DNA of 64,000 nucleotides from Pseudomonas sp. FP2196. Its GTDB lineage: Bacteria > Pseudomonadota > Gammaproteobacteria > Pseudomonadales > Pseudomonadaceae. This document shows positions 10,658-25,520 of the stretch, in pieces. Within the stretch, counting starts at the first letter, position 1. Every line of letters begins with the position of its first letter. The translations under genes and the position numbers were made by a program. The notes below the pieces were generated by a model. That model worked only from the letters and a program-made list of their open reading frames with translations, was not told where the DNA came from and did not search any database. Location of the stretch: assembly GCF_030687715.1 (NCBI RefSeq), contig NZ_CP117445.1, forward strand, positions 375,501-439,500, in the 5' to 3' direction.

Positions 10658-12022
10658 CTAGCCTAAAAGGTCGCGCAGGACTTGGGTGAAGGCGCGAGCG
10701 CTGTCCTCTTCCCCGGCATGCCGCCCATCACGCACCACCCACTGGCCATTGACCAGCACATCGCGAAACTGACGATCGCCGCCGGCAAACAACCAGCGAT
10801 TCAAAATCCCGTCGCCAGTGGCTGTCGCCAGATACGGATCGTTGCCATCGAGCACAATCCAGTCCGCACGTTTGCCAACCTCCAGCGCACCAATCGGTTG
10901 CCCCAGTGCCTGAGCGCCGCCCTCCAGCGCCGCGTCGTACAGAGTGCGCCCGACCATAGGCTGATCCGCGCCATACAAACGGTTGCGTCGCTGATCGCGC
11001 AGACGCTGGCCGTATTCCAGCCAACGCAACTCTTCCACGACGCTGAGCGACACATGGCTGTCGGAACCGATGCCCATGCGCCCGCCCTGTGCGAGGAAAT
11101 CCACCGCCGGGAAAATCCCGTCGCCGAGGTTGGCTTCAGTGGTCAGGCACAGACCGGCGATGGCGCGACTCTTAGCCATCAGCGTGACTTCTTCCGGGTT
11201 GGCGTGAGTGGCGTGAACCAGGCACCAGCGCTGATCGACTTCGGTGTTTTCGTACAGCCATTGCAGCGGACGACGACCGCTCCAGCTCAGGCAGTCATCG
11301 ACTTCCTTCTGCTGTTCGGCGATGTGAATGTGCACTGGGCATTGTTTGTCGCTGGCGGCCAACACTTCACTGATTTGCTGCGGGGTGACCGCGCGCAACG
11401 AGTGGAAACACAGACCCAGCGATTGCGCCTTCTGTTGCGCCAGCAGCGGCTGCAAACGCGATTGCAGATTCAGGTAATTTTCGGTGCTGTTGATGAAACG
11501 GCGCTGGCCATCGTTGGGTAACTGGCCGCCGAAACCGGAGTGGCTGTACAGCACTGGCAGCAAGGTCAGACCAATGCCGCTTTCACTTGCCGCCTGGCTG
11601 ATACGCAAAGCGAGTTCAGCCGGATCCGCATAAGGCTGGCCATTGCTGTCGTGGTGCACATAGTGGAATTCAGCGACCGAGGTGTAACCGGCCTTGAGCA
11701 TTTCGATGTACAGCTGTCGGGCGATGACGCCGAGTTGATCGGGGCTGATTTTTCCGACGAGCCGGTACATCAAATCGCGCCACGTCCAGAAACTGTCGTT
11801 GGGATTACCGGCCACTTCGGCCAAACCGGCCATTGCTCGCTGGAACGCGTGGGAGTGCAGATTGGGCATCCCCGGCAGCAGCGGGCCGCTTAACCGTTCG
11901 GCGCCATCTGCGGTGGAATCGGCCTGGATTTGGGTCAACACGCCATCGGCGCTGACCTCAAGACGTACATTGTTGGCCCATCCGTTAGGCAGCAGCGCGC
12001 GTTCGGCAAAGAAAGCGGACAT
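10658..12022 (-). CDS. hutF: Formimidoylglutamate deiminase
   Basis: Converts N-formimino-L-glutamate to N-formyl-L-glutamate and ammonia, the fourth step of the five-step histidine pathway used by pseudomonads. The 454-residue amidohydrolase shows the metal-binding NLHSHAFQRAMAG motif near residue 54, the metal/substrate region HIHIAEQQKEV (near 232), LVHATHA (near 270) and IGSDSHVS (near 320). It is transcribed away from hutC, leaving a 106-base shared control region with a HutC-type site. Together with hutG downstream in the locus this confirms the HutF/HutG route rather than direct HutG formiminoglutamase chemistry. Confidence 0.96.
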   Translation of the reverse strand: MSAFFAERALLPNGWANNVRLEVSADGVLTQIQADSTADGAERLSGPLLPGMPNLHSHAFQRAMAGLAEVAGNPNDSFWTWRDLMYRLVGKISPDQLGVIARQLYIEMLKAGYTSVAEFHYVHHDSNGQPYADPAELALRISQAASESGIGLTLLPVLYSHSGFGGQLPNDGQRRFINSTENYLNLQSRLQPLLAQQKAQSLGLCFHSLRAVTPQQISEVLAASDKQCPVHIHIAEQQKEVDDCLSWSGRRPLQWLYENTEVDQRWCLVHATHANPEEVTLMAKSRAIAGLCLTTEANLGDGIFPAVDFLAQGGRMGIGSDSHVSLSVVEELRWLEYGQRLRDQRRNRLYGADQPMVGRTLYDAALEGGAQALGQPIGALEVGKRADWIVLDGNDPYLATATGDGILNRWLFAGGDRQFRDVLVNGQWVVRDGRHAGEEDSARAFTQVLRDLLG

Positions 12023-12128: not shown

Positions 12129-12878
12129 GTGCCGACTCCGCCTCCAGTTTCCCCGTTGGCCGCGAACATGGGCGACAGTCCGGCGCCCTTGTACGCCCGC
12201 GTCAAACAGATGATCACCCAGCAGATCGACAGCGGTAACTGGCCGCCGCACTACCGCGTGCCGTCGGAAAGCGAACTGGTCAATCAGCTCGGTTTCAGCC
12301 GCATGACCATCAACCGCGCGCTGCGCGAGATGACCGCCGACGGCCTGCTAGTGCGTATGCAAGGCGTCGGCACTTTCGTCGCTGAACCGAAGAGCCAGTC
12401 CGCGCTGTTCGAAGTGCACAACATCGCCGACGAAATCGCCTCGCGCGGCCATCGCCACACTTGCCAGGTCATTACCCTCGAAGAAGAGGCCGCCGGCTCC
12501 GAACGCGCACTGGCACTGGACATGCGCGAAGGGCAGAAGGTGTTTCACTCGCTGATCGTGCATTACGAAAACGACATTCCGGTGCAAATCGAAGACCGTT
12601 TCGTCAACGCGCTGGTCGCCCCGGAATACCTCAAGCAGGACTTCACCCTGCAAACGCCTTACGCCTACCTCAACCAGGTCGCGCCGCTGACCGAGGGCGA
12701 GCATGTGGTTGAAGCAATCCTGGCCGAGTCGTCCGAGTGCAAGTTGCTGCAGATCGAAAAAGGCGAGCCGTGCCTGCTGATTCGCCGTCGCACATGGTCG
12801 GGCCGTCAGCCGGTGACTGCGGCGCGGTTGATCCACCCGGGTTCTCGTCATCGTCTGGAAGGTCGGTTCCATAAATAG
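12129..12878 (+). CDS. hutC: Histidine utilization repressor, GntR/HutC family
   Basis: A 249-residue regulator. The N-terminal winged helix-turn-helix (about residues 20-90) has YRVPSESELVNQLGFSRMTI and the GTFVAEPKS end. The C-terminal UTRA effector domain includes FHSLIVHYENDIPVQIEDRFVN and ends in TAARLIHPGSRHRLEGRF. HutC proteins repress hut genes and are released by urocanate (family knowledge). The GTG at 12129 is chosen because AAGGA lies 6 bases before it and the resulting length matches known HutC proteins; a longer frame upstream runs through the intergenic region. hutD follows after 9 bases. Confidence 0.95.
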   Translation: MPTPPPVSPLAANMGDSPAPLYARVKQMITQQIDSGNWPPHYRVPSESELVNQLGFSRMTINRALREMTADGLLVRMQGVGTFVAEPKSQSALFEVHNIADEIASRGHRHTCQVITLEEEAAGSERALALDMREGQKVFHSLIVHYENDIPVQIEDRFVNALVAPEYLKQDFTLQTPYAYLNQVAPLTEGEHVVEAILAESSECKLLQIEKGEPCLLIRRRTWSGRQPVTAARLIHPGSRHRLEGRFHK

Positions 12879-12887
12879 AGAGCATAA

Positions 12888-13457
12888 ATGAGTGAAGTTA
12901 AGGTTTTACGCGCCGAAGGCTATCCGCGCATGCCGTGGAAAAACGGCGGCGGCAGCACCGAAGAAATCACCCGTGACGCTGGCGCAGGGCTTGATGGTTT
13001 TGGCTGGCGCCTGTCGATTGCCGACATCGCCGAGTCCGGCGGTTTCTCAAGCTTCGCCGGATACCAGCGCGTAATCACCGTGCTGCAGGGTGACGGCATG
13101 ACGCTGTGTGTCGACGGTGACGACACCCGCCCATTGTTACCCCTCGACCCGTTTGCTTTCAGTGGTGAGAGCCAGGTTTCCTGCACGCTGCTCGGCGGTT
13201 CGATCCGCGATTTCAACCTGATCTACGCGCCGCAGCGTTACCGCGCGCGGTTGCAATGGCTGGAGGGTGAGCAGCGGTTTTTCAGTTCGGCGGGGACGGT
13301 GCTGGTGTTCAGTGTCAGTGAGTTGCTGCAAGTGCAGGTCGGTGAAAGTGTTTCGCAGTTGGGGCGACATGATTGTCTGCAACTGGACGGTAACAGTGGG
13401 TTGGTCGAAGTTGCCGTTGATGCGGGTTGCTGTGTCATTGAGCTGACGGCACGCTGA
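12888..13457 (+). CDS. hutD: HutD family cupin protein
   Basis: A 189-residue protein of the HutD family. The N-terminal MPWKNGGGSTEEITRD block (about residues 11-26), the FGWRLSIADIAESGGFS segment and the central FNLIYAP stretch are characteristic of this bicupin fold. HutD is needed for fitness on histidine in fluorescent pseudomonads and has been proposed to moderate hut expression, perhaps by binding a pathway metabolite; its biochemical role is not settled. It is cotranscribed with hutC. Confidence 0.93.
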   Translation: MSEVKVLRAEGYPRMPWKNGGGSTEEITRDAGAGLDGFGWRLSIADIAESGGFSSFAGYQRVITVLQGDGMTLCVDGDDTRPLLPLDPFAFSGESQVSCTLLGGSIRDFNLIYAPQRYRARLQWLEGEQRFFSSAGTVLVFSVSELLQVQVGESVSQLGRHDCLQLDGNSGLVEVAVDAGCCVIELTAR

Positions 13458-13469
13458 TCCAAAAATCTT

Positions 13470-13548
13470 AAAAGATCGCAGCCTTCGGCAGCTCCTACAG
13501 GGTGTATATCAATCCCACTGTAGGAGCTGCCGAAGGCTGCGATCTTTT
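13470..13548. repeat. REP doublet, GATCGCAGCC family
   Basis: Inverted arms AAAAGATCGCAGCCTTCGGC and complement lie just after hutD. They separate the hutCD unit from the hutU promoter and may terminate hutCD. The sequence from 13549 to 13740 shows no gene; a TTGTACA half-site occurs near 13719. Confidence 0.85.
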
Positions 13549-13740
13549 GCTTTTAGGGTGTTCCCAACCCACGCACCAACTTGTTACCGAACGCCCCAGC
13601 GTGGCGCAAAATCACGCTTTCGTAACAATCCCCCAACTCCCCAAAATACTCCCGCGAAAAATTTCATCCACGCCAGAACCCTTGATTCAGGCGACCTCCA
13701 GCCCTGCGCGCAATTTTTCTTGTACACCCCTCCAATAAGT

Positions 13741-13756
13741 TGGCCGCTTGATTGCA
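13741..13756 (+). promoter_or_regulatory. Sigma-54 (-24/-12) promoter of the hutU operon
   Basis: TGGCCGCTTGATTGCA has the invariant GG and GC dinucleotides separated by exactly 10 bases and fits the TGGCACG-N4-TTGCA consensus closely. It is the only good promoter candidate in the 435-base gap before hutU. Sigma-54 control fits the known activation of hut genes by CbrB/NtrC-type activators in Pseudomonas. Transcription would start near 13766. Confidence 0.75.
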
Positions 13757-13760
13757 TATG

Positions 13761-13774
13761 CTTGTATGTACAAG
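13761..13774. promoter_or_regulatory. HutC operator overlapping the predicted hutU start site
   Basis: CTTGTATGTACAAG is an inverted repeat, CTTGTA-N2-TACAAG, placed 4 bases after the -12 element so that it covers the predicted transcription start. It shares the TGTA-N2-TACA core with the hutF-hutC site. HutC bound here would block open-complex formation or escape. Confidence 0.78.
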
Positions 13775-13892
13775 TAAAGACGTATGCGTATAAGCCGCAG
13801 CGTCCACTGATTCGCTTGCCGCGCATTGAAGCGCGCAGGCTGCTTGCCCACTGCCAGGGTTGGTTTGAATTGATCGCTGAGGAGTCTTTTTC

Positions 13893-15590
13893 GTGACTGA
13901 CAAGAAAACTACCGCCGCTTCTTATACAAAGCATCGTGACGTTGAAATCCGTGCCGCACGCGGCAACAAGCTGACCGCCAAGAGCTGGCTGACCGAAGCG
14001 CCGCTGCGCATGCTGATGAACAACCTCGACCCGGAAGTGGCCGAGAACCCGAAAGAGCTGGTGGTCTACGGCGGTATCGGTCGCGCCGCCCGTAACTGGG
14101 AGTGCTACGACAAGATCGTCGAGAGCCTGACCAACCTGAATGACGACGAGACCCTGCTGGTGCAATCCGGCAAGCCGGTCGGCGTATTCAAGACCCACAG
14201 CAACGCCCCGCGCGTACTGATCGCCAACTCCAACCTGGTGCCACACTGGGCGAGCTGGGAGCATTTCAACGAACTCGACGCCAAAGGCCTGGCCATGTAC
14301 GGCCAGATGACCGCCGGCAGTTGGATCTACATCGGCAGCCAAGGCATCGTTCAAGGCACCTACGAAACCTTCGTTGAGGCAGGTCGTCAGCACTACAACG
14401 ACAACCTCACCGGCAAGTGGGTGCTGACCGCCGGTCTGGGCGGCATGGGCGGCGCTCAGCCGCTGGCCGCAACCCTGGCCGGCGCCTGCTCGCTGAACAT
14501 CGAATGCCAGCAGGTCAGCATCGATTTCCGCCTGAAAAGCCGTTACGTCGACGAGCAAGCCACCGATCTCGACGACGCGCTGGCGCGCATCGCCAAGTAC
14601 ACCAAAGAAGGTAAAGCGATCTCCATCGCGCTGCTGGGCAACGCTGCAGAAATCCTGCCGGAACTGGTCAAGCGCGGCGTGCGCCCGGACATGGTCACCG
14701 ACCAGACCAGCGCCCATGACCCACTCAACGGCTACCTGCCGGCCGGCTGGACCTGGGACGAATACCGCGCCCGCGCCAAGACCGAACCGGCCGCTGTGAT
14801 CAAGGCTGCCAAGCAGTCGATGGCCGTGCACGTCAACGCGATGCTGGAATTCCAGAAGCAAGGCATCCCGACCTTCGACTATGGCAACAACATCCGTCAG
14901 ATGGCGCAGGAAGAAGGCGTCGAGAACGCGTTCGACTTCCCGGGTTTCGTGCCGGCTTACATCCGTCCGCTGTTCTGCCGTGGCATCGGCCCGTTCCGTT
15001 GGGCGGCGCTGTCGGGTGATCCGCAAGACATCTACAAAACCGACGCCAAGGTCAAAGAGCTGATCCCGGACGACGCCCACTTGCACAACTGGCTGGACAT
15101 GGCCCGCGAGCGCATCAGCTTCCAGGGTCTGCCGGCACGTATCTGCTGGGTTGGCCTGGGCCTGCGCGCCAAGCTCGGTCTGGCGTTCAACGAAATGGTC
15201 CGCAGCGGTGAGCTGTCGGCGCCGATCGTGATCGGGCGCGACCACCTCGATTCCGGCTCGGTGGCCAGCCCGAACCGTGAAACCGAATCGATGCAGGACG
15301 GTTCCGACGCCGTGTCCGACTGGCCACTGCTCAACGCTCTGCTGAATACCGCGAGCGGCGCGACCTGGGTTTCCCTGCACCACGGCGGTGGCGTCGGCAT
15401 GGGCTTCTCCCAGCACTCGGGCATGGTGATTGTCTGCGACGGTACGGACGAAGCGGCCGAGCGTATTGCCCGCGTGCTGCACAACGACCCGGCCACCGGT
15501 GTCATGCGTCACGCCGATGCCGGTTATCAGATCGCCATCGACTGCGCGAAGGAACAGGGCCTGAACCTGCCGATGATTACCGGTAAATAA
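13893..15590 (+). CDS. hutU: Urocanate hydratase (urocanase)
   Basis: Converts urocanate to imidazolonepropionate, the second step of histidine breakdown, using tightly bound NAD+. The protein has 565 residues, the usual length. Visible motifs are [15 protein letters not shown] near residue 50, the nucleotide-binding [18 protein letters not shown] near 180, and FDYGNNIRQ plus [16 protein letters not shown] in the middle of the protein. The start is GTG with GAGGAG 8 bases upstream. It is the first gene of the long catabolic operon behind a sigma-54 promoter and HutC operator. Confidence 0.98.
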
Positions 15591-15602
15591 AACGCAAAAC
15601 CC

Positions 15603-15684
15603 CTGTAGGAGCTGCCGCAGGCTGCGATCTTTTGATGTTGTTTTTTTAAGATCAAAAGATCGCAGCCTGCGGCAGCTCCTACAG
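15603..15684. repeat. Perfect long REP hairpin between hutU and the permease gene
   Basis: Two perfectly complementary 34-base arms (15603-15636 and 15651-15684) of the GATCGCAGCCTGCGGCAG type flank a 14-base centre. It sits inside the predicted hut operon transcript, so it would fold into a stable RNA stem just after hutU. Confidence 0.92.
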
Positions 15685-15713
15685 AGAATCTAACAATCCA
15701 CAGAGGTTGAACC

Positions 15714-17186
15714 ATGGCTGTCAGTCCCGATCGTGCAGGCAACAAACCGTTGATCGAAAGGCGTTCGATCGACTACATCCCGGAAGCGGAAAGACACGGT
15801 CGTCTGTTCAGCCAATTCACCTTGTGGATGGGTGCCAACCTGCAAATCACGGCGATTGTCACCGGGGCGTTGGCCGTGGTGCTGGGCGGTGATGTGTTCT
15901 GGTCGTTGATCGGTCTGTTGATCGGTCAACTGCTGGGCGGCGCGGTGATGGCGCTGCATGCGGCGCAAGGGCCGAAACTGGGTCTGCCGCAGATGATTTC
16001 CAGTCGCGTGCAGTTCGGGGTTTATGGCGCAGCCATCCCGATCGTGCTGGTGTGCCTGATGTACCTGGGCTTCACCGCAACGGGCACGGTGCTTTCCGGC
16101 CAGGCACTGGGCCAGTTGTTTGGCGTCAGCGACAGCATCGGCATTCTGATTTTCGCCAGTGTCATCGTGCTGGTGACGGTGATGGGTTATCGAGTGATCC
16201 ACTGGATTGGCCGCGTCGCCAGCGTCATTGGCGTGATTGCCTTCGTTTTCCTGTTCTGGCGTCTGATGAGCCAGACCGACGTCGGCGCACTGATGCAAAT
16301 CCGCCACTTCAGCTGGAGCAGCTTCCTGCTGGCGGTGTCGCTCGCGGCCTCCTGGCAGATCGCTTTCGGCCCTTACGTGGCGGACTATTCCCGTTACCTG
16401 CCGAGCAAGACCTCAGCGGTGAAAACCTTTTTCGCCGCCGGCGCCGGTTCGGTGATTGGCGCACAAGTGGCGATGATCCTCGGTGTATTCGCTGCCGCTT
16501 CGGCCAACGACCAGTTCGCCGGCCATGAAGTGGCTTACATCGTCGGTCTGGGTGGGACCGGTGCCACCGCAGCGCTGCTGTACTTCAGCATTGCGTTCGG
16601 CAAGGTGACCATTTCGACGCTGAACTCCTACGGCAGCTTCATGTGCATCGCCACCATCATCAGCGGTTTCAAAGGTCATCTGCAGGTCTCGCGCATGCAG
16701 CGTCTGGTGTTCGTGCTGTTCATCGTCGGCGCGGCGACGCTGATCGCGTTGCTCGGTCAGCATTCGTTCCTCGGTGCGTTCAAGTCTTTCATCCTGTTCC
16801 TGCTCGCGTTCTTCACGCCGTGGAGCGCGATCAACCTGGTGGACTACTACTGCATCACTCGCGAGCGCTATGACGTGCCGGCGCTGGCCGATCCGAACGG
16901 TCGCTATGGTCGCTGGAACATGCTCGGTATCAGCGTCTATGTCTTTGGCGTGCTGGTGCAGTTGCCGTTCATCTCCACCAAGTTCTACACAGGTCCCTTG
17001 GTAGCTGCCCTCGGTGATGTGGATATCTCCTGGATCATCGGTCTGGTGCTGCCTGCCGCTGTGTATTACGTGTGCGCAAAAAAATGGCACAGCCCAGTAC
17101 CCGATCAACTGATTCTGCCGGTCGAGCAGGACAGCGTTGTACAACCTAAAACAAGTGGGGCCGTTCGCGCTGCGGCGCAGGCCTGA
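15714..17186 (+). CDS. NCS1-family permease, probable urocanate (or related base) transporter
   Basis: A 490-residue membrane protein with about twelve hydrophobic helices. The pattern resembles cytosine/purine NCS1 symporters: WMGANLQITAIVTGAL at about residues 40-55, ASWQIAFGPYVADYSRYLP near 215 and TPWSAINLVDYYCITRERYDV near 365. In hut loci of other Pseudomonas a protein of this family follows hutU and is regarded as the urocanate importer, so this is the likely role here. The substrate cannot be proven from sequence, and cytosine or another heterocycle remains possible. It is transcribed after hutU past the long hairpin. Confidence 0.85.
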   Translation: MAVSPDRAGNKPLIERRSIDYIPEAERHGRLFSQFTLWMGANLQITAIVTGALAVVLGGDVFWSLIGLLIGQLLGGAVMALHAAQGPKLGLPQMISSRVQFGVYGAAIPIVLVCLMYLGFTATGTVLSGQALGQLFGVSDSIGILIFASVIVLVTVMGYRVIHWIGRVASVIGVIAFVFLFWRLMSQTDVGALMQIRHFSWSSFLLAVSLAASWQIAFGPYVADYSRYLPSKTSAVKTFFAAGAGSVIGAQVAMILGVFAAASANDQFAGHEVAYIVGLGGTGATAALLYFSIAFGKVTISTLNSYGSFMCIATIISGFKGHLQVSRMQRLVFVLFIVGAATLIALLGQHSFLGAFKSFILFLLAFFTPWSAINLVDYYCITRERYDVPALADPNGRYGRWNMLGISVYVFGVLVQLPFISTKFYTGPLVAALGDVDISWIIGLVLPAAVYYVCAKKWHSPVPDQLILPVEQDSVVQPKTSGAVRAAAQA

Positions 17187-17255
17187 TTGGACGTGGACAG
17201 GGCTGGATGCCTCTTGACTGCCGTAAGCCAATTCATGATTAGGAGCGTCGCAATA

Positions 17256-18224
17256 ATGAAATCGAACAAGACCCTGCTGACTACATTGCTGTCCATGGGC
17301 CTGTTGGCCAGCGCTGGCGCAACTCAAGCCGCCGGCTGGTGCGAATCGGGCAAACCGGTGAAATTCGCCGGTCTGAACTGGGAAAGCGGCATGCTGCTGA
17401 CCGACGTCCTGCAAGTGGTGCTGGAAAAAGGTTACGACTGCAAGACCGACAGCCTGCCAGGCAACTCCATCACCATGGAAAACGCCCTGAGCAGCAACGA
17501 CATTCAAGTGTTTGCCGAAGAGTGGGTCGGCCGCAGCGAAGTCTGGAACAAGGCCGAGAAGGCCGGCAAGGTGGTCGGGGTTGGCGCTCCGGTCGTCGGC
17601 GCCGTTGAAGGCTGGTACGTGCCGCGTTACGTGATCGAAGGCGATGCCAAGCGCAAGCTTGAGCCGAAAGCCCCGGATCTGAAAAACATTGCCGATCTGG
17701 GCAAATACGCCGCCGTGTTCAAAGACGCCGAAGAACCCTCCAAAGGCCGTTTCTACAACTGCCCGGCCGGCTGGACTTGTGAGCTGGACAACAGCGAAAT
17801 GCTCAAAAGCTACGGCCTGGAAAGCAGCTACACCAACTTCCGTCCGGGCACGGGACCTGCGCTGGATGCGGCGGTGCTGTCGAGCTACAAGCGTGGCGAG
17901 CCGATCCTGTTCTACTACTGGTCGCCAACCCCGCTGATGGGCCAGGTCGATCTGGTCAAACTGGAAGAAAAACCGGGCGTCGACAAGACCGTGAGCATCA
18001 AGGTTGGCCTGTCGAAAACCTTCCACGACGAAGCCCCGGAACTGGTGGCGGTGCTGGAAAAGGTCAACCTGCCCATCGACCTGCTGAACCAGAATCTCGG
18101 GCGCATGGCGAAGGAACGTATCGAGTCGCCAAAACTGGCGAAAATCTTCCTCAAGGAACATCCTGAAGTCTGGCACGCCTGGGTGAGCGAAGACGCAGCC
18201 AAAAAGATCGACGCGGCCTTGTAG
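17256..18224 (+). CDS. hutX: Histidine ABC transporter, substrate-binding protein
   Basis: A 322-residue periplasmic protein. The signal peptide ends near ATQAAG. The mature protein belongs to the OpuAC/ProX family (substrate-binding proteins of quaternary-amine and histidine/proline importers), with VKFAGLNWESGMLLTDVLQVVLE at its start and FRPGTGPALDAAV in the second lobe. The ATG at 17256 has AGGAG 10 bases upstream; a longer in-frame leader would spoil the signal peptide. Conserved Cys residues (WCESGK; NCPAGWTC) may form disulphides. Its place in the hut operon before permease and ATPase genes points to histidine as substrate. Confidence 0.9.
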   Translation: MKSNKTLLTTLLSMGLLASAGATQAAGWCESGKPVKFAGLNWESGMLLTDVLQVVLEKGYDCKTDSLPGNSITMENALSSNDIQVFAEEWVGRSEVWNKAEKAGKVVGVGAPVVGAVEGWYVPRYVIEGDAKRKLEPKAPDLKNIADLGKYAAVFKDAEEPSKGRFYNCPAGWTCELDNSEMLKSYGLESSYTNFRPGTGPALDAAVLSSYKRGEPILFYYWSPTPLMGQVDLVKLEEKPGVDKTVSIKVGLSKTFHDEAPELVAVLEKVNLPIDLLNQNLGRMAKERIESPKLAKIFLKEHPEVWHAWVSEDAAKKIDAAL

Positions 18225-18294
18225 GTCGAGTTTCTCCGGCTGCCGGCCACGGCAGTCGGACGCTTGATCGCAACCCCTTGATTGAGAGTCTCTT

Positions 18295-19146
18295 ATGTTT
18301 CCCGAAAGCTTTACCTTTTCCATCGCCGACTGGGTCAACGGTTGGGTCGATTCGCTGGTCACCAACTACGGTGATGTGTTCCGTCACATCTCCGACACCC
18401 TGCTGTGGGCCATCGTCAATCTCGAAGGCCTGCTGCGTGCAGCGCCGTGGTGGTTGATGCTGGCGATTGTCGGTGTCGTCGCCTGGCATGCAACGCGCAA
18501 AGTCGTGACCACCGCCGTCATCGTCGGTCTGCTGTTCCTGGTGGGTGCTGTCGGCCTGTGGGACAAGCTTATGCAGACCCTGGCGCTGATGATGGTCGCA
18601 ACGATCATTTCGGTGCTGATCGGCATACCGCTGGGGATTCTCTCGGCGCGCAGCAATCGCCTGCGTTCGGTGCTGATGCCGCTGCTCGACATCATGCAGA
18701 CCATGCCAAGTTTCGTTTACCTGATCCCGGTGCTGATGCTGTTCGGCCTGGGTAAGGTCCCGGCGATTTTCGCCACGGTGATCTACGCCGCGCCACCGCT
18801 GATTCGCCTGACTGATCTGGGTATTCGTCAGGTCGACGGCGAAGTCATGGAAGCGATCAATGCCTTCGGTGCCAATCGCTGGCAGCAACTGTTCGGCGTG
18901 CAACTGCCGCTGGCCCTGCCGAGCATCATGGCCGGGATCAACCAGACCACCATGATGGCCCTGTCGATGGTGGTGATCGCCTCGATGATCGGCGCCCGTG
19001 GCCTGGGTGAAGATGTACTGGTGGGGATTCAGACCCTCAACGTCGGACGGGGTCTTGAGGCCGGTCTGGCGATCGTGATTCTCGCAGTGGTCATCGACCG
19101 CATTACTCAGGCGTACGGTCGGCCACGGCATGAGGTGAGCAAATGA
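18295..19146 (+). CDS. hutW: Histidine ABC transporter, permease
   Basis: A 283-residue integral membrane protein of the ProW type with about six hydrophobic helices. The cytoplasmic coupling loop carries the EAA motif in VMEAINAFGANRWQQLFGVQLPLALPSIMAGINQ. The N-terminal region WVNGWVDSLVTNYGDVFRHI precedes the first helix, as in glycine-betaine permeases. The last 4 bases overlap the ATPase gene, indicating translational coupling. Confidence 0.92.
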   Translation: MFPESFTFSIADWVNGWVDSLVTNYGDVFRHISDTLLWAIVNLEGLLRAAPWWLMLAIVGVVAWHATRKVVTTAVIVGLLFLVGAVGLWDKLMQTLALMMVATIISVLIGIPLGILSARSNRLRSVLMPLLDIMQTMPSFVYLIPVLMLFGLGKVPAIFATVIYAAPPLIRLTDLGIRQVDGEVMEAINAFGANRWQQLFGVQLPLALPSIMAGINQTTMMALSMVVIASMIGARGLGEDVLVGIQTLNVGRGLEAGLAIVILAVVIDRITQAYGRPRHEVSK

Positions 19147-19973
19147 GCAACGCAACCGTGAGCAAGATCGAAGTCAAAAACGTCTTCAAGATTTTCGGCA
19201 ACCGCGCCAAGGACGCCTTGGTCATGGTCGGCCAGGGCAAGACCAAGGATCAGGTGCTGAACGAAACCGGTTGCGTGGTCGGGGTCAACGACCTGTCGCT
19301 GAGCATCGGCACCGGCGAGATCTTCGTGATCATGGGCCTGTCCGGTTCCGGCAAGTCGACGCTGGTGCGCCATTTCAATCGCCTGATCGACCCGACCAGC
19401 GGCGCGATCCTGGTCGACGGCGTGGACATCCTGCAATACGACATGGACGCCCTGCGCGAATTTCGTCGGCACAAGATCAGCATGGTGTTCCAGAGCTTCG
19501 GCCTGCTGCCGCACAAGACCGTCCTCGACAACGTCGCCTACGGCTTGAAAGTGCGCGGCGAGAGCAAGCAGATGTGCAACGAACGCGCGCTGCACTGGAT
19601 CAACACCGTGGGCCTCAAGGGCTACGAAAACAAATACCCGCACCAGCTTTCCGGCGGCATGCGTCAGCGTGTCGGCCTGGCCCGTGCATTGGCGGCAGAC
19701 ACCGACATCATCCTGATGGACGAAGCGTTCAGCGCCCTCGATCCGCTGATCCGCGCCGAGATGCAGGACCAGTTGCTGGAGCTGCAAAAGACTCTGCACA
19801 AGACCATCGTCTTCATCACCCACGACCTCGATGAGGCCGTGCGTATCGGCAACCGCATTGCGATTCTCAAGGACGGCAAGCTGATTCAGGTTGGTACGCC
19901 ACGCGAGATCCTGCATTCGCCGGCGGATGAGTATGTTGACCGGTTCGTGCAGCGGCGGGCGGCGGTGGTCTGA
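19143..19973 (+). CDS. hutV: Histidine ABC transporter, ATP-binding protein
   Basis: A 276-residue ABC ATPase of the ProV type. Walker A is GLSGSGKST, the signature is LSGGMRQRVGLARAL, Walker B is IILMDEAFSALDP and the switch His is in FITHDLDEA. The segment KDQVLNETGCVVGVNDLS before Walker A is typical of ProV-like subunits. Unlike E. coli ProV, it ends at IQVGTPREILHSPADEYVDRF without the two CBS domains, so the osmotic sensing module is absent. ATG overlaps the hutW stop. Confidence 0.93.
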   Translation: MSNATVSKIEVKNVFKIFGNRAKDALVMVGQGKTKDQVLNETGCVVGVNDLSLSIGTGEIFVIMGLSGSGKSTLVRHFNRLIDPTSGAILVDGVDILQYDMDALREFRRHKISMVFQSFGLLPHKTVLDNVAYGLKVRGESKQMCNERALHWINTVGLKGYENKYPHQLSGGMRQRVGLARALAADTDIILMDEAFSALDPLIRAEMQDQLLELQKTLHKTIVFITHDLDEAVRIGNRIAILKDGKLIQVGTPREILHSPADEYVDRFVQRRAAVV

Positions 19974-20003
19974 TCTGGGTTTTGCAGTGCAATGACTGGC
20001 CTC

Positions 20004-20183
20004 ATCGCTGGCAAGCCAGCTCCCACAGGGAATGTGTGAACCCTGAGGACTCTGTAGGGCTGGCAGACCCAGGTCTTACAAAGATTGTGTGAACACTGGG
20101 GGCTCTGTGGGGGCTGGCAGGCCCAGTTCCTACAGAGATTGTGTGAACACTGGAGATCCTGTGGGAGCTGGCTTGCCAGCGAT
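20004..20183. repeat. Tandemly expanded REP element before the first ammonia-lyase gene
   Basis: The outer arms ATCGCTGGCAAGCCAGCTCC (from 20004) and its complement (ending 20183) enclose two and a half direct units that each begin TGTGTGAAC, at 20033, 20086 and 20140, with periods of 53 and 54 bases. The middle units contain decayed arms such as GGGGCTGGCAGGCCC. This fills most of the gap between hutV and the next gene. Confidence 0.8.
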
Positions 20184-20225
20184 AGGGCCAGTGAAACTGC
20201 ATCAATATTATGGTTGAGGTTAAAG

Positions 20226-21749
20226 ATGTCCCAGGCTGAAAAAGTCGTGATCACCGGCGCCCACCTGCGCTGGCAAGACGTAGTCGCCGTTGCCCGTCAC
20301 GGCGCACAACTTGAGCTGTCGGGCGACACGTGGGCGCGCATCGAAAACGCTCAGGCCATCGTCCAGCGCATTGTCGTCAGCGGCGAGCGCGCTTATGGCG
20401 TCAACACCGGTCTGGGCGGGTTGTCCAACGTCTCGCTGAAAGACGAACAACTCAGCCAGCTCTCGCGCAACACCTTGCTCAGCCACGCCTGCGGCGTCGG
20501 TCCGGTACTGCCCGACGAGCAGACCCGCGCCATCATCTGCGCCGCGATCCACAACTACAGCCATGGCAAGTCCGGCCTCCATCGTCGGGTTGTCGAAGGG
20601 CTGCTGGCGTTGCTCAATCGCGGCATCACCCCACAAGTGCCGTCGCAAGGTTCGGTGGGTTATCTGACCCACATGGCACACATCGGCATCACGCTGCTCG
20701 GCGTGGGTAATGTCAGCTATCGCGGACAGGTTGTTTCTGCACAACAGGCCTTGGCCGAAGAGGGCCTGCAGCCGGTGCAACTGGGCGCGAAGGACGGTTT
20801 GTGCCTGGTCAACGGCACGCCGTGCATGACCGGCCTCAGCTGCCTGGCGATTGCCGACGCCACGCGTCTGGTGCAATGGGCCGATGTCATTGGCGCCATG
20901 AGTTTCGAAGCCCAGCGTGGGCAGATTGACGCGTTCGACGCCGAGATCATCGCGTTGAAACCGCATCCGGGCATGCAGCAAGTTGGCGTCAATCTGCGTG
21001 CGTTGCTTGATGGCAGTGAAGTGATTGCTTCGAGCAAGGGCATTCGCACTCAGGATGCGCTGAGCATTCGCTCGATCCCGCAGGTGCATGGCGCCGCGCG
21101 CGATCAACTCGAGCACGCCATCAAACAGGTCGAAGCCGAACTCAACGGCTGCACCGACAACCCGTTGCTGCTGGGTACGCCGGACGATTTCCGGGTCATG
21201 TCCCAGGCCAATCCGCACGGTCAGTCAGTGGCGATGGCGGCGGATCTGCTGGCGATCGCCGTGGCGGAAATCGGCTCGATTGCCGAGCGTCGTCTCGATC
21301 GTCTGGTTAACCCGCACGTCAGCGGTCTGCCGGCATTTCTGGTGGCCAATCCGGGGGTGAACTCCGGGATGATGATCGTGCAATACGTCGCCGCGTCGCT
21401 GTGCGCGGAAAACCGCCAATTGGCGCAACCGGCGGTGCTCGACAACTACGTCACCTCGGGCTTGCAGGAAGACCATCTGAGCATGGGCACCACTGCGGCG
21501 CTGAAGCTGCATCGGGCGCTGGAAAACTGCACGCAGATCCTCGCCATCGAATATCTGCTGGCGGCGCAGGCGTTTGAATTCTTGAAAGCGCAGCGCTTTG
21601 GCACGGGCACTGATATCGCGTGGCGCCTGCTGCGTGAGAAAGTCCCGGCCTACGATCAGGACCGTTGGCTGGCGCCGGATATCGCCGCCGCAGCGAGCGT
21701 TTTGAAAACCCCGAATTTGCTGCACAACGTATTACCGAATTTGCATTGA
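20226..21749 (+). CDS. Ammonia-lyase paralogue lacking the MIO triad (HutH1-like)
   Basis: A 507-residue member of the histidine/phenylalanine ammonia-lyase family, next to the intact hutH. It keeps the family fold signature: YGVNTGLGG (Tyr57), LSHACGVG (His87), LVNGT and QEDHLSM. But at the cofactor site the neighbour reads [14 protein letters not shown], whereas this protein reads GSVG-YLTHMAH: the three residues Ala-Ser-Gly that cyclize to MIO are missing (GSVG at 142-145). The equivalents of Tyr280 and Phe329 are also changed (QDALSIR and NPHGQS). GAGG lies 8 bases before the ATG. The frame is intact, so it is kept under selection, but ordinary MIO lyase activity looks unlikely. A structural, regulatory or different catalytic role is possible. 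Confidence 0.88.
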   Translation: MSQAEKVVITGAHLRWQDVVAVARHGAQLELSGDTWARIENAQAIVQRIVVSGERAYGVNTGLGGLSNVSLKDEQLSQLSRNTLLSHACGVGPVLPDEQTRAIICAAIHNYSHGKSGLHRRVVEGLLALLNRGITPQVPSQGSVGYLTHMAHIGITLLGVGNVSYRGQVVSAQQALAEEGLQPVQLGAKDGLCLVNGTPCMTGLSCLAIADATRLVQWADVIGAMSFEAQRGQIDAFDAEIIALKPHPGMQQVGVNLRALLDGSEVIASSKGIRTQDALSIRSIPQVHGAARDQLEHAIKQVEAELNGCTDNPLLLGTPDDFRVMSQANPHGQSVAMAADLLAIAVAEIGSIAERRLDRLVNPHVSGLPAFLVANPGVNSGMMIVQYVAASLCAENRQLAQPAVLDNYVTSGLQEDHLSMGTTAALKLHRALENCTQILAIEYLLAAQAFEFLKAQRFGTGTDIAWRLLREKVPAYDQDRWLAPDIAAAASVLKTPNLLHNVLPNLH

Positions 21750-21865
21750 CAACTACCCATACCAGCGTGCCAAGGCGTGGATCGTTCACAAGACGAAAAA
21801 CGACGGATAACGGAATGCTCCGGAGCGACTGGTAGTTAATAACAATGTTCAAAAGGAGCATTTTA

Positions 21866-23398
21866 ATGACTGCGCTAAACCTGATCCCCGGCCAACTGAG
21901 CCTGGCTCAACTGCGTGACGTTTTTCAGCATCCGGTCAAGCTGAGCCTCGATAACAGCGCATCGCAGCAGATCGAAGCCAGTGTTGCCTGCGTCGAGCAG
22001 ATCCTCGCCGAAAACCGCACCGCCTACGGCATCAACACCGGTTTCGGCCTGCTGGCCTCGACGCGCATCGCCAGCGAAGACCTGGAAAACCTCCAGCGCT
22101 CGCTGGTGCTGTCGCATGCCGCCGGTGTGGGTCAGCCGATCAGCGATGACTTGGTGCGTCTGATCATGGTGCTCAAGGTCAACAGCCTCAGCCGTGGTTT
22201 CTCCGGCATCCGCCGCGTGGTGATCGATGCGCTGATTGCGCTGATCAATGCCGAGGTCTATCCGCACATTCCGCTGAAAGGTTCGGTGGGGGCTTCCGGT
22301 GACCTCGCGCCACTGGCGCATATGTCGCTGGTGCTGCTGGGCGAGGGCAAGGCGCGTTACAAGGGCGAGTGGATGGAAGCCACTGAAGCGCTGAAAGTGG
22401 CTGGCCTGACGCCGCTGACGCTGGCGGCGAAAGAAGGTCTGGCGCTGCTCAACGGCACTCAGGTGTCGACTGCGTTTGCCTTGCGTGGCCTGTTTGAAGG
22501 TGAAGATCTGTTTGCAGGCGCCATTGCACTGGGTGGTCTGACGGTTGAAGCGGTATTGGGTTCGCGCTCGCCGTTCGACGCACGTATCCATGCCGCCCGT
22601 GGCCAGAAAGGCCAGATCGATGCCGCCGCTGCTTACCGTGATCTTCTCGGTGAGCGCAGCGAAGTGTCCGATTCGCACCAGAACTGCGAGAAGGTCCAAG
22701 ACCCGTACTCGCTGCGTTGCCAGCCACAAGTCATGGGCGCCTGCCTGACCCAGTTCCGTCAGGCTGCTGAAGTGTTGGCCGTCGAAGCCAACGCCGTATC
22801 GGATAACCCGTTGGTGTTCGCCGCTGAAGGCGATGTGATTTCCGGCGGCAACTTCCACGCCGAACCGGTGGCCATGGCCGCTGACAACATGGCCCTGGCC
22901 ATCGCCGAAATCGGCTCGCTCAGCGAGCGCCGCATCTCGCTGATGATGGACAAGCACATGTCGCAACTGCCGCCGTTCCTGGTGGCCAATGGCGGGGTCA
23001 ACTCCGGCTTCATGATCGCCCAGGTGACAGCGGCGGCACTGGCCAGTGAAAACAAGGCGCTGTCCCATCCGCATTCGGTGGACAGCCTGCCGACCTCGGC
23101 CAACCAGGAAGATCATGTGTCCATGGCGCCGGCTGCCGGCAAACGCCTGTGGGAAATGGCCGAGAACACTCGCGGGATTCTTGCGGTGGAGTGGCTCGCT
23201 GCGGTGCAGGGGCTGGACTTGCGTAACGGTCTGAAAACCTCGGCGAAGCTGGAACAGGCCCGGGCGATTTTGCGTCAGGAAGTGCCGTTCTACGAGAAGG
23301 ACCGGTTCTTTGCGCCGGACATCAATGCGGCGACTGAGTTGTTGGCTTCGCGCTGCCTGACCGAGCTGGTGCCGGCGAAATTTTTGCCTAGCCTGTAA
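21866..23398 (+). CDS. hutH: Histidine ammonia-lyase (histidase)
   Basis: Deaminates L-histidine to urocanate and ammonia, the first step of the pathway. The protein has 510 residues, identical in length to the well-studied P. putida enzyme. The MIO-forming triad A143-S144-G145 lies in [14 protein letters not shown]. Active-site residues are present: Tyr54 (YGINTGFG), His84 (LSHAAG), the Asn in LLNGT, QDPYSLR, the Phe in GGNFHAEP and the Glu in [15 protein letters not shown] lies a few bases before ATG 21866; an ATG seven codons upstream is less well placed. It follows the MIO-less paralogue after 116 bases. Confidence 0.98.
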
Positions 23399-23405
23399 GG
23401 GCCTC

Positions 23406-23470
23406 TTCGCGAGCAGGCTCGCTCCCACAGTTGGAATGCGTATCCCTGTGGGAGCGAGCCTGCTCGCGAA
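23406..23470. repeat. REP doublet, CGCGAGCAGGCTCGCTCCCAC family
   Basis: Perfect 25-base arms at 23406-23430 and 23446-23470 surround a 15-base centre, between hutH and hutI and therefore inside the predicted operon transcript. Confidence 0.9.
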
Positions 23471-23500
23471 ATCGATTTTGAATAGTGTGGAGACTAAGGG

Positions 23501-24706
23501 ATGAAAACCCTCTGGCAACACTGCCACGTCGCAACCATGGCGCAAGGCGTCTACTCGATCATCGAGGATGCGGCCATCGTGACGTCCGGTGCGCTGATCG
23601 AGTGGATCGGCCCGCGTAATCAACTGCCCTCGGGCGAATACCCGGCGGTCAATGATCTGCAAGGCGCGTGGGTCACCCCCGGCCTGATCGACTGCCACAC
23701 CCACACCGTGTTTGGCGGCAACCGCAGCGGTGAATTCGAAAAGCGTCTGCAAGGCGTCAGCTATGCCGAGATCGCGGCGCAGGGCGGTGGCATCGCCAGC
23801 ACCGTGCGGGCGACCCGTGAAGCCAGCGAAGACGAATTGTTCGCCAGCGCCGCCAAACGCCTGAAAAGCCTGATGCGCGATGGCGTGACCACGATAGAAA
23901 TGAAGTCCGGCTACGGCCTCGATCTGGCCAATGAACGCAAAATTCTGCGAGTCATCCGTCGCCTGGCCAAAGAGCTGCCGATCAGCGTGCGCAGCACCTG
24001 CCTCGCCGCTCACGCGCTACCCCCGGAATACAAGGATCGCGCCGACGATTACATCGATCACATCTGCGCCGAAATGTTGCCTGCTCTGGCTGCCGAAGGC
24101 CTGGTCGATGCCGTGGATGCGTTCTGCGAATACCTGGCGTTCTCTCCGGAACAGGTCGAGCGCGTGTTCATCACCGCTAAAGAATTAGGTTTGCCGGTGA
24201 AGCTGCATGCCGAGCAATTGTCGTCGCTGCACGGCTCCAGCCTGGCCGCGCGCTACCATGCGTTGTCCGCCGATCACCTGGAGTTCATGGACGAAACCGA
24301 CGCCATCGCCATGGCCGCATCCGACACCGTCGCGGTGCTGCTGCCGGGCGCGTTCTACTTCCTGCGTGAAACCCAGCTGCCGCCGATGGACGCCTTGCGC
24401 AAGCACAAGGTCAAGATCGCCATCGCCAGCGATCTCAACCCCGGCACCTCGCCGGCGCTGTCGTTGCGCCTGATGCTGAACATGGCCTGCACCTGTTTCC
24501 GCATGACCCCGGAAGAAGCATTGGCCGGGGCGACCATTCATGCCGCCCAAGCACTGGGTATGGCCGAGACCCACGGTTCGCTGGAAGTCGGCAAGGTCGC
24601 GGATTTCGTCGCCTGGCACATTGATCGTCCGGCGGATCTGGCCTATTGGCTGGGCGGTGATCTGGACAAACGCGTCGTGCGTCACGGCGTTGAATCAAGT
24701 CTGTAG
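23501..24706 (+). CDS. hutI: Imidazolonepropionase
   Basis: Hydrolyses imidazolone-5-propionate to N-formimino-L-glutamate, the third step. The 401-residue amidohydrolase shows the metal site [16 protein letters not shown] (near residue 65), MKSGYGLDL (near 135), the HAEQLS metal/catalytic stretch (near 236) and [21 protein letters not shown] (near 308). Its stop codon overlaps the ribosome binding site of hutG, so the two are coupled. Confidence 0.97.
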
Positions 24707-24716
24707 GAGAGCGGTT

Positions 24717-25520
24717 GTGGATAAGGTTCTGAGCTTCAAACAAGGTCGCGTGCCGCTGCTGATCAGCATGCCCCATGCAGGTCTGCGCCTGACGCCTGCG
24801 GTCGAGGCTGGGCTGATCCCGGATGCGAAAAGCCTGCCGGACACCGACTGGCATATTCCGCAGTTGTACGACTTTGCAGAAGAACTGGGCGCCAGCACTC
24901 TGGCCGCGCAATATTCACGTTTCGTCATCGACCTCAACCGGCCGTCCGACGACAAGCCGCTGTACGCTGGCGCCACCACCGGGTTGTATCCGGCGACCTT
25001 GTTCGACGGCATCCCGTTGTTCAAGGAAGGTCTGGAGCCTTCGAAAGAGGAGCGCGCGACCTATCTGGAACAGATCTGGACGCCGTACCACCGCACCTTG
25101 CAGGAAGAGCTGGCGCGGCTGAAGGCCGAGTTCGGTTACGCGCTGCTGTTCGACGCGCACTCGATCCGCTCGATCATCCCGCACCTGTTCGACGGCAAGC
25201 TCCCGGACTTCAACCTCGGCACCTTCAACGGCGCGAGCTGCGATCCGCAACTGGCCGCGCAACTGGAAGCCATCTGCGCGCGTCATGGTGAATACAGCCA
25301 TGTGCTCAACGGTCGCTTCAAGGGCGGCCACATCACCCGTCATTACGGCAACCCGGCTGAAAACATCCACGCCGTGCAACTGGAACTGGGCCAGTGCACG
25401 TACATGGAAGAGTTCGAACCGTTCCGCTATCGCGCCGATCTGGCCGAGCCGACGCGGGTGGTGCTCAAGGAGTTGCTGCAAGGCTTCCTCGCCTGGGGCA
25501 AATCCCGCTACGCCGCCTGA
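24717..25520 (+). CDS. hutG: N-formylglutamate deformylase
   Basis: Releases formate and L-glutamate from N-formylglutamate, completing the five-step route begun by HutF. The 267-residue protein belongs to the N-formylglutamate amidohydrolase family, with PLLISMPHAGLRL near the N-terminus, DTDWHI, FVIDLNRPSDDKPLY, LLFDAHSIRS and GRFKGGHITRHYG. It starts at GTG with AGGAG (24705-24709) 7 bases upstream, the SD overlapping the hutI stop. It is the last gene of the hut operon. Confidence 0.95.
   Translation: MDKVLSFKQGRVPLLISMPHAGLRLTPAVEAGLIPDAKSLPDTDWHIPQLYDFAEELGASTLAAQYSRFVIDLNRPSDDKPLYAGATTGLYPATLFDGIPLFKEGLEPSKEERATYLEQIWTPYHRTLQEELARLKAEFGYALLFDAHSIRSIIPHLFDGKLPDFNLGTFNGASCDPQLAAQLEAICARHGEYSHVLNGRFKGGHITRHYGNPAENIHAVQLELGQCTYMEEFEPFRYRADLAEPTRVVLKELLQGFLAWGKSRYAA

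Follow-up and report, generated by a model that had tools for sequence, protein, structure and literature searches.

A gene in the hut operon of Pseudomonas sp. FP2196 encodes a relative of histidine ammonia-lyase (HAL) that has lost the residues forming the 4-methylideneimidazole-5-one (MIO) cofactor and probably represents, judged from sequence comparison, a conserved family of MIO-less lyases which are encoded beside importers and act on N-methylated histidine. The gene, termed H1, occupies positions 20226..21749 on the plus strand of the window, the entire stretch of 64,000 nucleotides analysed (NZ_CP117445.1, positions 375,501 to 439,500), and was delimited as an open reading frame (ORF) for a PF00221 protein of 507 amino acids by profile scan and alignment. 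It takes the hutH1 position in front of the gene for the canonical HutH with Ala-Ser-Gly at the MIO site (21866..23398, plus strand; ORF, profile scans). Concerning the reaction, we lean slightly towards the elimination of trimethylamine from imported hercynine (histidine betaine), which would yield urocanate for HutU.

The ORF of H1 comprises 507 codons without an internal stop, in agreement with the undamaged frame described in a sequence-only reading of this DNA, and translation and alignment equally bear out the clean three-residue deletion of the MIO triad noticed there. The MIO region (20649..20681, plus strand) reads GSVG followed, after a gap between codons 145 and 146, by YLTHMAH with Tyr146 and His149 conserved, a net loss of three residues compared to the Ala-Ser-Gly of HutH. 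This gap is universal in the alignment of H1 proteins (249/249). Among 7486 homologues found, the 120 listed carry the same motif as H1; these are at least 85% identical and hence not independent. The pattern GSVGYL.HMAH occurs in 232 of 233 listed proteins, the remaining one having been matched at a different GSVG, and all 233 align with the gap. Of 248 genomes of the family, 68 hold an H1 match of at least 49% identity, with the next matches, at 43% or less, at the level of HutH, part of the matches having been read individually. In the 20 loci fetched from this set Ala-Ser-Gly is absent from the H1 motif in 18, H1 being masked by the ORF picker in the other two (L082, L085). Equally, Ala-Ser-Gly is absent from H1 in 80 of 80 loci from named genomes, with genera including Pseudomonas, Halomonas, Vreelandella, Salinicola, Zobellella, Oceanimonas, Paracoccus, Prodigiosinella and Pantoea; these are the best 80 of at least 591 stretches ranked with a Halomonas-type H1 query, stem mostly from Pseudomonas and related bacteria and are not independent, and one of the two search patterns contained the gap motif, which made the gap partly a selection criterion. 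Screening 398 genomes of the phylum added 11 further relatives with 47-70% identity, all of which show GS[VA]GY with the same gap. Orthologues that keep Ala-Ser-Gly were looked for and none was found. Since the relatives share the deletion, H1 is not an isolated lesion, and a sequencing error is equally ruled out. One distant match (G611, L180) contains a TGA within the matched stretch.

The changes at the active site are distributed unevenly around the substrate. Residues are given in the numbering of the HAL of Pseudomonas putida (PpHAL; PDB 1b8f) and alignment columns in that of the window HutH, which equals PpHAL plus one. In PpHAL, the imidazole is contacted by His83, Met382 and Glu414 and the carboxylate by Asn195 and Arg283; the amino group has MIO, Tyr280 and Phe329 nearby. 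H1 keeps Tyr53, His83, Asn195, Gln277, Arg283, Met382 and Glu414, four of which (Tyr53, His83, Asn195, Glu414) had already been recognized in the sequence-only reading; the corresponding columns, Tyr54, His84, Asn196, Gln278, Arg284, Met383 and Glu415, are invariant in 249/249 H1 and 27/27 HutH proteins. Ala, Ser and Gly occupy the MIO site in 27/27 HutH, 23 of which had been chosen by this very motif. The replacement of Tyr280 and Phe329 (QDALSIR; NPHGQS), likewise noted before, resolves into Leu and Pro. In the Tyr281 column Leu is found in 249/249 H1 (Leu279 of the window H1, 21060..21062, plus strand, by alignment), in the ergothionase of Treponema denticola (PDB 6s7j) and in 121/121 ergothionase-type relatives, which comprise 120 database proteins and one from Salinicola corii, classed by sequence alone. 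The Phe330 column holds Pro in 247/249 H1 and Ala in most of the 11 distant relatives. In column 387, HutH has Val and 249/249 H1 have Tyr (Tyr387, 21384..21386, plus strand, by alignment). With the ring and carboxylate contacts kept and the changes close to the amino group, the pocket would therefore fit a substrate that differs from histidine at its amine. A relaxation of the active site beyond the cofactor triad, expected of a dead paralogue, was not found in the seven columns invariant in 249/249 proteins, though Tyr281 and Phe330 are changed.

All 79 named loci for which upstream sequence is available have a transporter gene on the same strand as the upstream neighbour of H1, namely HutV in 62, a betaine/choline/carnitine transporter (BCCT) in 15 and an amino-acid ATP-binding cassette (ABC) ATPase in two; two of the BCCT proteins were confirmed as PF02028 and the others assigned by similarity to one of these, and gene calls in the locus context are longest ORFs with some starts wrong. 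In the same loci hutH directly follows H1 in 48 of 53 cases and is never preceded by a same-strand transporter gene, and hutU, present in 61 of the 80 loci, is preceded by hutD in 22/61 and otherwise by others. As transporters are common in hut operons, it is the constancy and not the mere presence that marks H1. In the window, the importer genes on the plus strand are HutX, a glycine-betaine-type substrate-binding protein (17253..18224; PF04069 OpuAC), the ABC permease HutW (18295..19146; ORF) and, immediately 5' of H1, the ABC ATPase HutV (19143..19973; ORF, neighbourhood), with the names HutW and HutV, as those of HutU, HutI, HutG, HutD, HutC and HutF below, being our assumption. The PDB matches of HutX are binding proteins of the glycine-betaine/proline and choline type. 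Halomonas-type loci usually have the order hutU-BCCT-H1-hutI or hutU-BCCT-H1-hutH, and in 13 HutXWV-H1 loci hutU and hutH are both absent from the fetched flanks. In front of the Pseudomonas soli locus of this kind stands a divergent LysR-type regulator, and 13/13 loci have at this place an ORF that matches it in size and orientation.

H1 is also encoded in genomes in which HutH was not recognized. Although a HutH-like match of at least 50% identity exists in 16 of 18 genomes behind the named loci, and H1 is mostly accompanied by HutH in the Pseudomonas genomes examined, in S. corii and Salinicola sp. EAC73, which possess H1 together with hutU, hutI, hutF and hutG, the best HutH-like match reaches 38% and is H1 itself. 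The S. corii assembly (G130) appears as 100% complete; the second one is a metagenome bin, and therefore the absence of HutH there may be an assembly gap. S. corii possesses a PF00221 protein with Ala-Ser-Gly, 33% identical to HutH, which groups with the third PF00221 member encoded in the window genome and may act as a histidase.

Evolutionary analysis shows that H1 is under purifying selection, with a median ratio of nonsynonymous to synonymous substitutions (dN/dS) of 0.092 (range 0.072-0.107; window H1 against 17 orthologues). The retained non-canonical function proposed in the sequence-only reading is thus supported by the conserved deletion, a dN/dS of about 0.09 and the kept substrate-binding residues. 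In a tree calculated with a quick method, HutH (Shimodaira-Hasegawa-like approximate likelihood ratio test, SH-aLRT, support 98) and H1 together with a subgroup H1b (support 99) form separate clades, so that H1 looks by sequence like an old sister lineage of HutH rather than a recent duplicate. The H1b proteins (L073:8065-9636, L074:8237-9820) are 48-49% identical and carry the same deletion without the NPHG motif; their genes adjoin a LysR-like gene, recognized by eye, and others, with no hut gene recognized nearby, and the substrate is perhaps a different one. The structure predicted from a 44-row alignment, used after a single-sequence model (predicted local distance difference test score 35) had been set aside, has the HAL fold and informs on the fold only; in a fold search HAL, aminomutase and ergothionase all match without separation among them. 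Both H1 and HutH pass the cut-off of PF00221 (aromatic amino acid lyase family), and the cut-off of the HutH equivalog TIGR01225 (NCBIfam) lets in the MIO-less H1 with 543.1 versus 539.15 bits, although H1 lacks the Ala-Ser-Gly of HutH (EC 4.3.1.3). Relatives of H1, where named in the sources, are called histidine ammonia-lyase or HAL/PAL/TAL family ammonia-lyase.

We infer the substrate, the products, the catalytic roles and the transport of the H1 substrate by the neighbouring importer from three features that together suggest hercynine: a betaine-type importer, a pocket resembling that for histidine, and an operon shared with HutU. The importer, HutXWV here and a BCCT or amino-acid ABC system elsewhere, would supply the cell with an N-methylated histidine. 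The likeliest is hercynine (N-alpha-trimethylhistidine), whose imidazole and carboxylate would be held by H1 as those of histidine by HutH, and whose trimethylammonium group would fit the room vacated by the MIO loop and Tyr280. A base would take the beta proton, trimethylamine would depart and the resulting urocanate would join the pathway at HutU. Since a quaternary amine leaves readily as it is, without the help of an electrophile, the reaction would require no MIO for activation. The sequence-only reading had considered MIO a requirement of the known chemistry of the family, which is too strict, since ergothionase, a MIO-less HAL relative (structure 6s7j) and the known precedent of a HAL fold without this cofactor, eliminates trimethylamine (PMC13405746). 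The chances are about even that a large MIO-independent lyase family opens in this way a hercynine route in many proteobacteria, from importer through trimethylamine elimination and urocanate to the Hut pathway.

Several observations weigh against the hercynine proposal. The Tyr of H1 in column 387 stands against Lys in 6s7j and 121/121 ergothionase types, a residue with a catalytic role in ergothionase. The importer is of the amino-acid and not the betaine type in 2/79 loci and in 7/11 distant relatives, two further relatives having HutXWV and the last two having no importer directly upstream. Transporter neighbours are not special to H1 either, as in 30/64 cases in the same loci an amino-acid permease gene stands in front of hutI. 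HutXWV is reported to participate in histidine uptake in strain SBW25 (PMC8871633), and the importer therefore need not imply a betaine; the Hut ABC system of Sinorhizobium reportedly also takes betaines, a point in the other direction that the literature examined did not show and that is given no weight here. H1 evolves faster than the adjacent HutH, with approximately twice its dN/dS (0.045). Ergothionase joins H1 in the tree with a support of 82 and very long branches, a weak grouping, so that the loss of MIO may have been a single event or two. Finally, PA5093 is presumably the HAL-like gene of the Pseudomonas aeruginosa hut locus and the orthologue of H1. Its deletion, under the name hutG, impaired growth on histidine and urocanate (PMC12772324), which, if the orthology holds, does not fit hercynine elimination unless the mutation is polar or the gene mislabelled, both of which are possible.

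Among the alternatives, another histidine-like substrate processed without MIO, such as mono- or dimethylhistidine or imidazole-lactate (by dehydration), giving urocanate or a Hut intermediate, is unlikely. The retained imidazole and carboxylate residues together with the altered amino-group side, and the amino-acid ABC importers of some loci, would accommodate such a substrate; however, the BCCT and OpuAC importers indicate a quaternary amine.

Among the closest known systems is ergothionase, which converts ergothioneine to trimethylamine and thiourocanate. With 6s7j, H1 shares the HAL fold without MIO, Leu at the Tyr280 equivalent and the retained equivalents of Tyr53, Gln277, Arg283 and Glu414, so that it might be considered an ergothionase itself. 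This we regard as quite unlikely: the two are only 28-29% identical, the MIO site of 6s7j has a one-residue deletion with Glu-Gly-Asp where H1 has lost three residues, and neither the Lys of column 387 nor the small residue of column 383 is present in H1, which has Met there as HutH does, against Gly in 6s7j and Ala, Gly or Ser in 121/121 ergothionase types. In column 84, 121/121 ergothionase-type sequences have Arg, and 6s7j, H1 and HutH have His. The product of ergothionase is not known to be a substrate for plain urocanase, and the hutU gene accompanies H1 in most of the loci as counted above. Moreover, S. corii encodes a separate, second MIO-less PF00221 protein (L038:6510-8045, minus strand; GSLGAADLAQLAQ) whose best PDB match is ergothionase and whose gene adjoins those of an OpuAC binding protein and of ABC components; judged by sequence, the locus is likely that of an ergothionase. 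Among the 120 relatives listed for this protein, many from Rhizobium by name, 102 read GSIGAADLAPLAH[MLV]; those named are called histidine or HAL/PAL/TAL ammonia-lyase and one aromatic amino acid lyase. As the MIO site was lost by different deletions in H1 and ergothionase, the cofactor may have been dropped more than once when trimethylamine replaced ammonia as the leaving group.

Of the three options put forward in the sequence-only reading, a different reaction fits best. The importer neighbour in 79/79 loci, the 13 loci without hutU and hutH in their flanks and the two Salinicola assemblies without a HutH-like match above 38% make sensing, and likewise mixed tetramers with HutH, less likely. 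A pseudoenzyme, be it a sensor or a structural or regulatory partner of HutH, would be in line with the loss of MIO, with the direct succession of H1 and hutH in most named loci that have the latter, and with HAL being a homotetramer; yet the invariant substrate-contact columns argue against it too, and we regard it as very unlikely. The reading of H1 as a HutH duplicate in decay, for which only its roughly doubled dN/dS relative to HutH would speak, has a negligible probability given the low dN/dS as such, the intact frame, its own well-supported clade and the identical gap across the relatives read.

In the literature, hutH1 of SBW25 has been reviewed as a histidase that growth on histidine does not require, located together with hutTu and hutXWV between hutU and hutH, and the module is also reported for P. 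aeruginosa (PMC8871633). By this gene order SBW25 hutH1 would correspond to H1; a MIO loss of hutH1 is not mentioned in the available part of that article. In Pseudomonas sp. J380, both hutH copies are up-regulated under iron limitation (PMC8069873). A urocanate-forming hercynine lyase did not appear in the titles or abstract openings of the papers listed from the open-licence literature. If the hercynine proposal holds, a function would be assigned to hutH1, a second group of MIO-less enzymes of the HAL fold would be established, and a bacterial sink of hercynine and source of trimethylamine would be identified. Equally, the annotation of many genes would have to be corrected, with at least 591 stretches encoding relatives, part of which were read. 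H1 also offers a test case for what renders a built-in cofactor dispensable, and when.

The hut genes of the window are arranged in the order hutF (minus strand), hutC, hutD, hutU, PF02133 permease, hutX, hutW, hutV, H1, hutH, hutI and hutG. HutF (10658..12022) lies on the minus strand; on the plus strand follow the repressor HutC (12129..12878, putative start), HutD (12888..13457) and the urocanase HutU (13893..15590; ORF). The Pfam-assigned PF02133 permease (15714..17186, plus strand) is by position the urocanate transporter HutTu (after PMC8871633). Downstream of hutH, HutI (23501..24706) and HutG (24717..25520, putative start) are plus-strand ORFs. Rfam gave no match above the gathering score in 13000-24000 of the window. 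Two database proteins (P0188, P0190) join an ABC ATPase to H1; this fusion was not used as evidence of coupling, as P0190 reads as a frame-shift between two genes. The gap between hutV and H1 measures 252 bp in the window, compared to a median of 12 and a maximum of 170 bp in 79 named loci (longest-ORF calls), and contains at 20007-20172 a 54-bp tandem repeat of 3.1 copies, which may separate H1 from the upstream transcript.
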